Of a stretch of 11,123 bases of DNA, positions 4,765 through 7,819 are shown piece after piece. Location: the NCBI GenBank assembly GCA_003132865.1, contig PKYZ01000232.1, positions 12,624 to 23,746 on the forward strand. Direction: 5' to 3'. Source of the DNA: Bryobacterales bacterium (GTDB lineage Bacteria; Acidobacteriota; Terriglobia; Bryobacterales; Bryobacteraceae). A program made the translations under genes and the position numbers. Each line of letters starts with the position of its first letter. Positions within the stretch are counted from its first letter, which is position 1. Under the pieces are notes generated by a model. The model was given only the letters and a program-made list of their open reading frames with translations, was not told the DNA's origin and did not search any database.

Positions 4765-6051
4765 ATGCGAACCGCCACGCCAGCCGTTCCCGAGGGTGCA
4801 TCCCAAGTTGCGCTCCTACACCATATCAGCAGCATTGTCAGCTCCGACCTGAGCCTGGAAAAAATGCTGCAAGAACTGCTCTCGCTTACGCTCGAAACCA
4901 CGCGTTGCGACGCCTGCCTGGTCTACCTGGTCGACCATGCCACCAACGAAGTGGTGCTGCAGGCCTCGCAACTCCCGCACGCGTCCGAGATCGGCAACAT
5001 TCGCCTCAAAATGGGCGAAGGCATCACGGGTTGGGTGGCGCAACACAAATCCGTGGTGGCGCTGTCGAACAAGGCTTCCGCCGACGCCCGCTTCAAGACC
5101 TTCCAAACGCTGCCGGAGGATACTTTCGACGCCTTCCTTTCCGTGCCGCTGGTGAGCGGCGGCGACCTGATCGGCGTCATCAACGTGCACCACCGCGAGC
5201 CGCACGCGCATGCGCCGGAAGAAGTCGCACTGGTCAGCTTCATTGGCGAGCAGATGGGCGGCGCCATCGCCAAGTCGCGCCTGGAAAAGCGCTCGGAAAC
5301 CGCGGCGAAGCGCATGGAAACGTTGGCGGCGGTGGCCCAGACCATCTCCGCCGAAAACTATCTGGACCGCATCCTGCAAGCCATTTCGGAGATGGTCGCG
5401 GAGACCCTGGATTCGCCCGTCTGTTCCATCATGCTGATCGACGAAGACCGCCGCGAGTTGGTGATTTCGGCGGCGCGCTGTTCTTCGCCCGACTATCTGC
5501 ACAAGATGCCGCTGAAGATCGAGGACTCGCTGATTGGCCGCGTGGTGCGCGAGGGCCGCCCCATCACGGTGCCCAACGTGCTCGCCGAGAAACAGTTCCG
5601 CTACCCGGAACTGGCGCGCAAGACCGGTCTGGCATCGCTGCTGTCCGTGCCCCTGTTCACGCGCGACAAGGTGATCGGCACGATCAATATCTATACGCGC
5701 GAGCAGCGCCATTTTTCCGAAGAAGAGATCGGCTTTGTGAAGGCCGTGGCCGGTCAGGCCGCTATCGCCATCGAAAATGCGCGCCTGATGTCGGAAACGC
5801 TGGAGATGAAGCGGACGCTGGAGGCGCGCAAGCTGGTGGAGCGGGCCAAGGGTATCCTGCAACAGAAGTACAACCTCACCGAAGAAGAAGCTTACCTGCG
5901 CTTGCGCAATGAGAGCCGGCGCTTGCGGCGTCCCATGCGCGACCTGGCCGAAGCGGTGATTCTGGCCGACGATCTGCGGCGTGTGGGGGAGGGGCCACGG
6001 CCGGGCCGGCCGGCTGAGCCGCAGGCGCGCGCGGAGCCCGTAGCCGAGTAG
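4765..6051 (+). CDS. GAF-GAF-ANTAR sensor and RNA-binding antiterminator protein
   Basis: Cytosolic signalling protein of 428 residues. Domains in order: GAF 1 (about 28-172, with MGEGITGWVA and SVPLVSGGDLIGVINVHH), a short helix, GAF 2 (about 195-340, with SLIGRVVREG, SLLSVPLFTRDKVIGTINIY and AGQAAIAIENARL), then a C-terminal ANTAR domain (about 350-405: LVERAKGILQQKYNLTEEEAYLRLRNES, then DLAEAVI). ANTAR domains bind paired RNA hairpins with hexanucleotide loops and stop transcription termination. There is no receiver or kinase domain, so the signal probably enters through the GAF pockets (ligand, redox or haem; not determinable) and exits directly to RNA. The tail after 406 is Pro/Arg/Glu-rich and likely disordered. 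It is transcribed away from the MocR gene. No target RNA motif could be identified by eye in this window. Confidence 0.92.
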   Translation: MRTATPAVPEGASQVALLHHISSIVSSDLSLEKMLQELLSLTLETTRCDACLVYLVDHATNEVVLQASQLPHASEIGNIRLKMGEGITGWVAQHKSVVALSNKASADARFKTFQTLPEDTFDAFLSVPLVSGGDLIGVINVHHREPHAHAPEEVALVSFIGEQMGGAIAKSRLEKRSETAAKRMETLAAVAQTISAENYLDRILQAISEMVAETLDSPVCSIMLIDEDRRELVISAARCSSPDYLHKMPLKIEDSLIGRVVREGRPITVPNVLAEKQFRYPELARKTGLASLLSVPLFTRDKVIGTINIYTREQRHFSEEEIGFVKAVAGQAAIAIENARLMSETLEMKRTLEARKLVERAKGILQQKYNLTEEEAYLRLRNESRRLRRPMRDLAEAVILADDLRRVGEGPRPGRPAEPQARAEPVAE

Positions 6052-6082
6052 TCGTAATCCTGGCATGCTAGACTGGGGTCAG

Positions 6083-6547
6083 ATGCGGACGGCATTGCTC
6101 GTTTTCATCATCGCCGGTTGGCTGCTGGCGTCTCGGCCAGGCGCAGCCGGTCAATTGTCTGCGGCGCGGCCCTCCGACGCGTCTGCCAACGAGCGGCTCG
6201 CGAAGATAGAGGCAACCCTATCGGCTCTACAAATACAGGTATCAGCTCTGCAAGCACAGGTAAGCGAGAACACGAAGACCCAGGTGGACATGCAAAGGCA
6301 GATCTCCGATCTAAACGCCAAGATGAGTCTTGTCCTTTGGGTTGGCGCAGCGGTCGGCGTCTTACTGCTCGGGGCCGCATGGAAATCCCTGGAACGGAAA
6401 GACCAAGTCGCATCGCCGCCGGCGCCGGCACATGCTGCATATACTGGGTTCGGCCAGTGGGAGATGGAAGCCTTGGCGCGCCGCCTTGTTGAAGAGCTTC
6501 GGCGTGACGAAGAGGCCCGGCAGACGCTCAAATCGAAACCGGCCTGA
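6083..6547 (+). CDS. Small exported coiled-coil membrane protein of unknown function
   Basis: 154 residues, not a family I recognise. Residues 1-17 are strongly hydrophobic (signal peptide or anchor). Residues 36-80 form a likely coiled coil (LAKIEATLSALQIQVSALQ, then QVDMQRQISDL). A single membrane helix spans 82-100, followed by a cytosolic segment with an acidic-basic helix near the end (EALARRLVEELRRDEEARQ). If the N-terminal segment is cleaved, the coiled coil is periplasmic and the tail cytosolic. I prefer the ATG at 6083: TAGACT (6069-6074) lies 8 nt upstream and the hydrophobic stretch starts right there. The ATG at 6065 would add six residues. It lies 31 nt after the GAF-ANTAR gene, so either an operon or its own leaderless promoter is possible. 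Confidence 0.65.
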   Translation: MRTALLVFIIAGWLLASRPGAAGQLSAARPSDASANERLAKIEATLSALQIQVSALQAQVSENTKTQVDMQRQISDLNAKMSLVLWVGAAVGVLLLGAAWKSLERKDQVASPPAPAHAAYTGFGQWEMEALARRLVEELRRDEEARQTLKSKPA

Positions 6548-6577: not shown

Positions 6578-6607
6578 TTGCGATCTCTTCATCAATTGCC
6601 CTATACT
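6578..6607 (+). promoter_or_regulatory. Sigma-70-type promoter for the aromatic leader and DAHP synthase
   Basis: TTGCGA (6578-6583, 4 of 6 matches to TTGACA) and TATACT (6602-6607, 5 of 6 matches to TATAAT) are separated by 18 nt. Transcription would start near A6616-A6619, directly at the leader-peptide ATG (6619). Confidence 0.65.
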
Positions 6608-6618
6608 TGCCTTTTACG

Positions 6619-6675
6619 ATGTCTTTTCCCGCCAGCTCGTTTAGTTTCCGATTCTGGTTTAGCCGGAATCGGTAG
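6619..6675 (+). CDS. Phe-rich leader peptide of a transcription attenuator
   Basis: 18-codon open frame ending in TAG, encoding MSFPASSFSFRFWFSRNR. Five of 18 residues are Phe (3, 8, 10, 12, 14) and one is Trp (13), with the cluster F-R-F-W-F near the end. This matches the design of E. coli pheL and related leader peptides, where ribosome stalling at codons for the scarce amino acid decides whether the downstream terminator forms. It lies between a good promoter and an intrinsic terminator, ahead of a DAHP synthase. There is no Shine-Dalgarno sequence; the ATG sits 11 nt after the -10 box, so translation is probably leaderless. Its stop codon overlaps the first base of the switching RNA segment. 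The peptide itself probably has no function. No match to a known leader family has been checked. Confidence 0.8.
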   Translation: MSFPASSFSFRFWFSRNR

Positions 6676-6746
6676 AGTGGCGTTGGATTGAGGCATATCC
6701 GGTTTTCTCGAAACCAACCCACTCGCCGGAGTGGGTTTTTTATTTT
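6630..6746 (+). promoter_or_regulatory. Ribosome-mediated transcription attenuator of DAHP synthase (alternative RNA helices)
   Basis: Helix 1:2 has an outer part, CGCCAGCTC (6630-6638) with GAGTGGCG (6675-6682), 8 bp with G6635 bulged. Its inner part is CCGATTCTGG (6648-6657) with CCGGAATCGG (6663-6672), 10 bp around a 5-nt loop. Antiterminator 2:3 pairs GAGTGGCGTTGG (6675-6686) with CCAACCCACTC (6714-6724), 11 bp with C6681 bulged. Terminator 3:4 is AACCCACTC (6716-6724) with GAGTGGGTT (6729-6737). Segment 2 cannot pair with 1 and 3 at once, nor segment 3 with 2 and 4. A ribosome stalled at Phe codons 8-12 covers segment 1 and frees 2 to form the antiterminator; one that reaches the stop codon at 6673-6675 covers segment 2 and lets the terminator form. 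The pairings are read directly; the mechanism is inferred. Confidence 0.8.
6716..6746 (+). terminator. Intrinsic terminator (attenuator) before DAHP synthase
   Basis: Seven GC-rich pairs, CCCACTC (6718-6724) with GAGTGGG (6729-6735), close a 4-nt GCCG loop; two A-U pairs can extend the stem. A run of six T (6736-6741), then A and four more T, follows at once. It lies 32 nt before the DAHP synthase start, on the same strand and after the leader promoter, so it acts as an attenuator rather than only ending the upstream gene. Confidence 0.9.
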
Positions 6747-6778
6747 GCAGCTTTTTTGCAGATGGGGAGCCAACAGCC

Positions 6779-7819
6779 ATGATCATCTCGATGCGGCCGC
6801 ATGCCACGCGCGAAGAAATCAAGCACGTTTGCGAACGAATTGAAGAGTTCGGATACAAAGTCCATTCCATCGAAGGGGAGGAGCGCGTGGTGATCGGCGT
6901 GGTGGGCATGGGCGACGTGACCGCCTGCCTGGAATCGCTCGAAGCCACTCCCGGAGTCGAACGCGCGGTGCGCATTTCGGCGCCCTACAAGTTCGTCAGC
7001 CGCGAGTTCAAGCCGGAGCACACCGTCCTGCGCGTCAACGGTCTGGAGATCGGCGGCGACGAGTTCATCGTCATAGCCGGGCCCTGCTCGGTGGAATCCG
7101 AGCGGCAGATCATGGAGACCGCCGAAGGCGTGGCCGCCGCCGGCGCCCGCATGTTGCGCGGCGGCGCCTTCAAGCCGCGCACCTCGCCCTACGATTTCCA
7201 GGGCATGGAACTGGAAGGCCTCAAGCTGCTGCGCAAGGCCAAGCAGGCCACCGGGCTGGCCATCGTCACCGAGGTGATGAGCGACAGCGACGTGGGCATG
7301 GTGGCCGAGTACACCGACGTAATGCAAGTGGGCGCGCGCAACATGCAGAACTTCGCGCTGCTGAAATCGCTGGGCGGCTGCGGACGCCCCGTGCTGCTGA
7401 AGCGCGGCATGAGCTCCACCATCAAAGAGCTGCTGATGTCCGCCGAGTACGTGGTGGCCCACGGCAATCCCCATGTGCTGTTGTGCGAGCGCGGTATCCG
7501 CACTTTCGAGACCGCCACCCGCAACACCTGCGACATCTCGTCCATCCCCGTGCTGAACGAGTTGACGCACCTGCCTGTGATCCTGGACCCCAGCCACGCC
7601 ACCGGCAAGCGCAGCCTGGTGCCGGCCCTGGCGCGCGCCGGAGTCGCCATTGGGGCGGACGGGCTGATCGTGGAAGTGCATCCCAATCCGGAAAAGGCCG
7701 TCAGCGACGGCGCGCAATCGCTCAAGCTGGAAGATTTCCGCGCCATGATGCGCCAGCTTCGCCCCTATCTCGACCTGTGGAAGGAAGCCCGGCTCGCCGA
7801 AACCGGCGCGGCTGTGTGA
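6779..7819 (+). CDS. aroF: 3-deoxy-7-phosphoheptulonate (DAHP) synthase, type I-beta with N-terminal ferredoxin-like regulatory domain
   Basis: Condenses phosphoenolpyruvate and erythrose 4-phosphate, the first step of the shikimate pathway. 346 residues, co-linear with the Thermotoga maritima enzyme. Residues 1-70 are the ferredoxin-like/ACT-like domain that gives Phe/Tyr feedback control in that enzyme. The TIM barrel follows with AGPCSVE (100-106), [11 protein letters not shown] (128-138), GARN (185-188), LLKRG (206-210), CERGIRTFE (236-244), DPSHATGKR (270-278) and VEVHP (298-302). The expected metal ligands are all present: Cys103, His273, Glu299 and Asp310. The ATG at 6779 has GGGGAG 9 nt upstream and matches the family start; the frame upstream of it runs back into the terminator T-run and is not coding. 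Expression appears to be set by the Phe-codon attenuator just upstream, adding transcriptional control to likely allosteric control. Confidence 0.96.

Follow-up and report, generated by a model that had tools for sequence, protein, structure and literature searches.

The window (the whole stretch of 11,123 nucleotides analyzed here) carries aroF, a gene for a DAHP synthase, together with a compact series of upstream features. The sequence-only reading of this DNA had described a promoter, an 18-codon leader frame, a 1:2 helix, an 11-bp antiterminator and a terminator followed by a U-run, all upstream of the gene, and we recovered every one of these parts at the positions below.

6578..6607, + strand: promoter TTGCGA-N18-TATACT (-35 TTGCGA at 6578-6583, 18-nt spacer, -10 TATACT at 6602-6607)
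6619..6675, + strand: leader ORF MSFPASSFSFRFWFSRNR-stop (ATG at 6619, 18 codons, TAG at 6673-6675; five Phe codons, one Trp and no Tyr)
6630..6638, + strand: segment 1, outer arm CGCCAGCTC, pairing with 6675-6682 (pairing conserved and partly covarying)
6648..6672, + strand: inner part of the 1:2 helix, 6648-6657 with 6663-6672, over Phe and Trp codons
6675..6686, + strand: segment 2 GAGTGGCGTTGG, the 5' arm of the antiterminator, overlapping the last base of the stop codon
6714..6724, + strand: segment 3 CCAACCCACTC, the 3' arm of the antiterminator, common to antiterminator and terminator
6716..6737, + strand: terminator hairpin AACCCACTC-GCCG-GAGTGGGTT (from sequence, folding and covariation)
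6738..6746, + strand: terminator U-run TTTTATTTT (from sequence)
6779..7819, + strand: aroF, type I-beta DAHP synthase with an N-terminal ferredoxin-like regulatory domain (from profile and structure matches)

The protein encoded by aroF scored above the cut-offs of NCBIfam NF006421 and TIGR01361 and matched PF18152 and PF00793, so that both the ferredoxin-like N-terminal domain and the DAHP synthase domain were found, a layout named type I-beta. Its residues 1-332 matched PDB 1rzm, the Thermotoga maritima enzyme. The antiterminator of the window consists of 11 bp (6675-6686 with 6714-6724, with one bulged C), is mutually exclusive with the 1:2 helix, and formed a better duplex than 100 of 100 shuffles (z, -3.5). 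The overlap that had been described between stop codon and switching segment amounts to one common base, 6675. The complete leader RNA, for which folding had been proposed as a check, reached -59.1 kcal/mol and surpassed 200 of 200 dinucleotide shuffles (z, -5.8). ANTAR is an RNA-binding antiterminator domain, and one occurs together with GAF domains in a protein encoded two genes upstream of aroF (4765-6051); this gene was not found upstream of the other aroF loci.

A contig scan of genomes provided 171 relatives, and we retained the best 80, all acidobacterial and many of them Bryobacterales, Solibacteraceae or "gp2." From 40 hand-picked upstream regions with visible parts, the window included (alignment A1), we built a covariance model (R1), which detected the element at 25 of the 41 aroF loci outside its building set with E values of up to 0.0006 (at two of the 25, L031 and L072, the element is cut by the contig end). 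Overall, the element was present at 65 of the 81 aroF loci (the window plus 80 acidobacterial relatives), and a simple scan found a terminator at 64 of the 79 loci with at least 200 nt of upstream sequence. Since homologous elements recur, also at loci unused in building R1, a chance origin is untenable. No element was detected by R1 at the other 16 loci; at two of these, L042 and L065, a leader-like frame is visible by eye. The window's two upstream genes were not found (tblastn, E value of up to 1e-5) upstream of the 68 other loci with at least 1,000 nt of sequence there, 52 of which carry the element. Given that the upstream genes differ while the element recurs, the element goes with aroF.

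Extending the search within Acidobacteriota, R1 matched in 99 of 250 genomes from the class of G001 at E values of up to 0.01 (71 at up to 1e-5) and in 17 of 297 genomes across the phylum, both sets being samples of larger groups and R1 having been trained on this class. Among 48 matches examined (the 30 best of the class and 18 of the phylum), the top 35 precede aroF, some of them at the same places as the contig-scan loci. Three (L125 to L127) stand ahead of a more distant aroF (57%) and have Trp-rich leaders.

The helices of the termination state are supported by covariation, another check that had been proposed. In the 40 elements of A1, two-sided changes occur in pairs of all four helices, as divided by the program. 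A second alignment (A2) was drawn from 97 sources (the window, 62 contig loci, and L094 to L127; loci with no match, 16 in number, and the two cut by a contig end did not enter). Of the 97, all but L049, which scored below the cut, matched (96), giving 88 distinct elements, L125 to L127 among them. In A2, 84.8% of the helix cells were paired, compared with 38 to 49% when the arms were slid, and two-sided changes occurred in 17 of 27 pairs (137 cells versus 55 in shuffles), in an alignment that had been fitted to this structure. The inner 1:2 helix had two-sided changes in 9 of its 10 pairs, with 70% of cells paired. Antiterminator pairing formed no part of the covariance model, and yet 86.7% of its cells were paired versus 33 to 49% when slid. 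Two-sided changes were few there (23 cells versus 11.5 in shuffles), and the number of antiterminator pairs showing them was not above that of shuffles (as high in 103 of 500). In L010, L015 and L022, segments 2, 3 and 4 vary together or nearly so.

Next to this RNA anatomy, the element has a leader ORF rich in codons for the end products of the pathway and an intrinsic terminator with a U-run before the gene. In the 88 distinct elements, the leaders span 12 to 36 residues (median, 20) with 4 to 10 aromatic ones (median, 6). Phe, Tyr and Trp codons made up 31.7% of the leader frame, compared with 7.9% and 6.7% of the other frames and 10.0% in shuffles, figures conditioned by the choice of the frame for its aromatic content and of the start for its nearness to the -10 box, with no re-picking of the frame in shuffles. 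A control that did re-pick the best ten-codon stretch found at least five aromatic codons in 55 of 79 upstream regions, versus 8 of 79 reverse complements and 171 of 1,580 shuffles, a weaker contrast in the same direction. The leader frame contained no in-frame stops, versus 29 and 56 in the other two, although it was picked partly for its openness. Altogether, the 1,751 codons include 273 for Phe, 176 for Tyr and 134 for Trp, and all three kinds are present in 77 of the 88 leaders, while 7 lack Trp and 4, including the window, lack Tyr. Judging from this content, the signal would be mainly Phe plus Trp in the window and Phe, Tyr and Trp together in the family, which fits the first enzyme of a common pathway. 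The earlier idea that Phe alone could control entry to the pathway is thus at odds with the mixed leaders of the family; for the window itself, a signal of Phe with one Trp is plausible.

The leader start lies close behind the promoter. In 71 of 87 elements, a -10-like hexamer (at least four of six bases) ends 8 to 11 nt ahead of the first leader codon, an upper bound because the choice of start favors this position; each of the remaining four-base bins accounts for 1 to 10 of the 87. The spacing is most often 9 nt (44 elements) and amounts to 11 nt in the window. From the usual distance between a -10 box and the transcription start, the transcript of the window is expected to begin near 6614-6616, in agreement with the sequence-only reading, therefore about 3 to 5 nt before the ATG, and across the family the leader messages would mostly have about 1 to 5 untranslated bases. 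A strict Shine-Dalgarno motif was found in none of the 88 leaders and a relaxed one in 10 of 87 elements. Given the AUG close behind the -10 box and no strict Shine-Dalgarno motif, the leader message is probably leaderless. This would be unusual for an attenuator leader, albeit not new: the leader RNA of the Sinorhizobium (S.) meliloti trpL attenuator is described as leaderless, starting at its AUG (PMC7298713), and leaderless initiation is discussed for ilvBNC of Corynebacterium (C.) glutamicum (PMC11857589). The S. meliloti case shares the leaderless message and differs in being a Trp leader on trpE(G) in Alphaproteobacteria (PMC7298713).

In order to follow the switch codon by codon, we folded the nascent RNA with a ribosome footprint that, counted from the first A-site base, covered 15 nt on the 5' side and 12 nt on the 3' side, trying each codon in 87 elements (L120 was dropped for missing columns) and treating the upstream RNA alike in all states. 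Antiterminator pairing averaged 0.85 for ribosomes on aromatic codons, 0.76 for those on the remaining sense codons and 0.39 for those on the stop. Aromatic codons gave more pairing than the stop did in 79 of the 87 elements and no more in 8; the stricter combination of pairing above 0.5 at aromatic codons and below 0.5 at the stop held in 60 and failed in 27. The window, where stall and stop codons are placed as a ribosome-mediated attenuator requires, showed means of 0.98 and 0.20, respectively. There, pairing stayed at 0.91 or above from codon 2 to Phe14 (0.91) and at 0.07 or below from Ser15 (0.05) to Arg18; because it collapses from Ser15 on, a stall is useful no later than at Phe14, the final aromatic codon. 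Stalls at nonaromatic codons free the antiterminator nearly as well, so the specificity rests on codon content. Without a ribosome, antiterminator pairing in the nascent RNA was 0.03 in the window and 0.70 on average in the family, and for this reason the family as a whole cannot be said to terminate by default. When the full-length leader was brought to equilibrium with a stalled ribosome, terminator pairing reached 0.35 in the window and 0.67 on average; since the terminator wins on average at equilibrium despite the stalled ribosome, the antiterminator must form first, by the order of synthesis. In seven gp2-like elements (L021, L037, L059, L061, L063, L070 and L075), the leader frame continues through segment 2 (ending RRGAFL or similar), and the details of switching must differ because, unlike in the window, the stop is not ahead of the antiterminator.

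Together, conservation, covariation, frame-specific codons and stall geometry strongly support the suggestion of a leader attenuator on the type I-beta DAHP synthase gene of an acidobacterium, and the aroF element is very probably a ribosome-mediated transcription attenuator that senses charged aromatic tRNAs, as far as sequence and folding models can tell. Transcription would begin just ahead of the leader AUG, by a few bases, so that a ribosome could load as the RNA emerges. With ample charged tRNA-Phe and tRNA-Trp, the ribosome would reach the stop codon and cover segment 2, leaving segment 3 to the terminator, and transcription would end ahead of aroF. Under a shortage of an aromatic tRNA, the ribosome is predicted to stall at a Phe or Trp codon and break the 1:2 pairing, so that the freed segment 2 could capture segment 3 while part of the terminator is still to be transcribed, allowing readthrough into aroF. 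Ribosome-free RNA of the window favors 1:2 pairing in these calculations, and termination would be the default there, which would not be the case for most of its relatives.

Three other explanations were weighed against an attenuator that senses charged aromatic tRNAs. The hairpin might simply be the terminator of the upstream gene (ORF 6065-6547), with aroF starting on its own farther downstream, and a terminator between genes on the same strand would be ordinary; but a promoter-like site lies between that gene and the hairpin, the -10 box is conserved across the elements, and the other loci share the element, with its conserved antiterminator, and not the upstream genes, which makes this explanation barely credible. 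It is also very improbable that an RNA-binding protein or a metabolite-binding RNA attenuates while the short frame goes untranslated. The terminator and antiterminator by themselves need no translation, but the aromatic enrichment is confined to one frame, with 0 stops versus 29 and 56 (partly by construction), and there was no match to an Rfam family. In the window, no family reached its gathering score, and among the seven matches at E values of up to 10 none came near that score and none was an amino acid gene leader (Rfam leader families include Phe_leader and Trp_leader); ten related loci likewise gave no family except a tRNA. A T-box or other riboswitch was rejected because of the missing covariance match plus the in-frame codon signal.

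The most serious alternative keeps the attenuator as proposed and lets only Phe matter, the Trp codons (and Tyr codons in relatives) being passengers. The window itself, with five Phe codons, one Trp and no Tyr, agrees with it, and so does aroF of C. glutamicum, whose FYF leader is described as responding to Phe and not to Tyr (PMC11802643). Nevertheless, drift around Phe would hardly keep 176 Tyr and 134 Trp codons or leave all three kinds in 77 of 88 leaders, and we consider this alternative unlikely, if far from negligible. For the attenuator sensing aromatic tRNAs together, several relatives in mechanism are known.

The leaders of E. coli pheA, pheST and trp have a ribosome binding site and read one amino acid each. 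The acidobacterial element resembles them in the 1:2, 2:3 and 3:4 pairings, with the codons placed over segment 1 and the stop ahead of segment 2, and differs in being probably leaderless, mixed in its aromatic codons and located on the entry gene of the common pathway. Attenuation of these three is mentioned in PMC11802643, and attenuation of E. coli aroF appears in the literature as a hypothesis cited to 1980. Closer to our case, the aroR-aroF leader of C. glutamicum is likewise an aromatic-codon leader peptide ahead of a DAHP synthase gene, at which stalling is said to raise transcription under Phe limitation (PMC11802643; PMC4046766). By description, it is set apart by having FYF only, with Tyr without effect, compared with the 4 to 10 aromatic residues of the acidobacterial leaders, and it belongs to another phylum, while all three aromatic kinds coexist in most acidobacterial leaders (77 of 88). 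A motif ahead of Acholeplasma aroF, uORFC-13-1, is presented as a proposed attenuator with 24 sequences from Acholeplasma and environmental DNA (PMC8632094). It shares an upstream ORF with at least one Phe codon and a promoter and terminator ahead of aroF, and it is set apart, again by description, by a ribosome binding site in its consensus, unlike the acidobacterial leaders without a strict Shine-Dalgarno motif. No acidobacterial aroF attenuator was found among the papers listed by searches of the open PubMed Central literature. Given the precedents from C. glutamicum, Acholeplasma and E. coli aroF, what can be claimed as new is confined to this phylum, this type of enzyme and a mixed leader. 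Accordingly, the claim that such an attenuator may be undescribed holds for the phylum within this literature and fails for DAHP synthase genes at large; as far as our searches reach, the new features are the occurrence in this phylum, a leader of triple-aromatic content and the fact that it was repeatedly lost, the mechanism being already known.

With respect to loss, a lack of conservation in close relatives had been named as a refutation of the attenuator, and for the most part this refutation did not come about: the element is present at 65 of the 81 loci, although it was not detected at 8 of the 15 grouping closest to the window in the AroF tree. On the tree of 81 AroF proteins, its presence and absence need 7 or 8 changes, and because the element-free loci sit inside element-bearing groups, repeated loss is the simplest reading, with gain also possible. 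We found no support for the element persisting at other places in genomes where aroF lacks it, since only 1 of the 15 genomes searched (the genome of L004 was left out) gave a match, with an E value of 0.018.

At some of these loci, another signal was seen. An inverted repeat, TACACC-N8-RTGGTG, lies about 86 to 98 bases before aroF at L002, L003, L004, L005, L011, L013, L046 and L073, that is, at 8 of 14 attenuator-free aroF loci, and did not turn up within 300 nt at any of the 72 remaining contig-scan loci. Most of the repeat-bearing loci show, by eye, a -10-like box right at the start of aroF, so that aroF itself looks leaderless there, and they fall into at least two separate lineages of the AroF tree. 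The pattern suggests that the attenuator was exchanged for a DNA-binding regulator at these loci. A large regulon for the repeat was not supported (17 exact matches in 10 genomes versus 26 for a reversed control pattern).

Put together, these observations lead us to a tentative proposal, in which we place slightly less belief than doubt: a class-wide attenuator in which one leaderless leader reads three aromatic tRNAs as an OR gate (a shortage of any would open aroF) and which was lost several times, with RNA control seemingly exchanged for DNA-binding control in at least two lineages that have a leaderless-looking aroF and an operator-like inverted repeat. Predicted attenuators in Acidobacteria are almost all without an assigned function (PMC2965389). 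The aroF element would be an acidobacterial attenuator with a clear gene, signal and anatomy, conserved in many genomes of a class. It suggests that a single leader can integrate three end products at the first step of a branched pathway, and its several losses form a natural set of cases in which to study the replacement of RNA control by other control.

Finally, some attenuator-like leaders were seen before other genes. Among the 13 weaker of the 48 genome-search matches, three are followed by trpE-like genes and one by a peroxiredoxin-like gene; no clear leader ahead of an amino acid gene was seen in the remaining nine, two of which (L129 and L132) contain an aromatic-rich frame. The first three (L128, L130 and L133, element at about 1501-1630), from other acidobacterial genomes, have Trp/Tyr-rich frames and terminators, the L130 frame having been read by eye with an uncertain start codon, and the genes that follow had TIGR00564 trpE as best match, above the cut-off in one of the three. 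Before trpE within the class, no aromatic leader with a terminator was found at the 25 loci with upstream sequence (a 26th had none), where two terminator-like hairpins occur without such a leader. The match before the peroxiredoxin-like gene (L134:1501-1650) contains five consecutive Cys codons and a terminator and is a candidate Cys attenuator. For pheA in the class, a Phe-rich leader with a strong terminator was found at 2 of 30 loci. In these few leaders, composition appears to follow the pathway (Phe-rich for pheA, Trp/Tyr-rich for trpE-like genes). The two candidate pheA attenuators, L192 and L209, have the frames MHRTGFSFAFRFFTGGAG and MNQRTGFTFSPYFYFFPCGERA, 100 to 200 bases before the pheA match.
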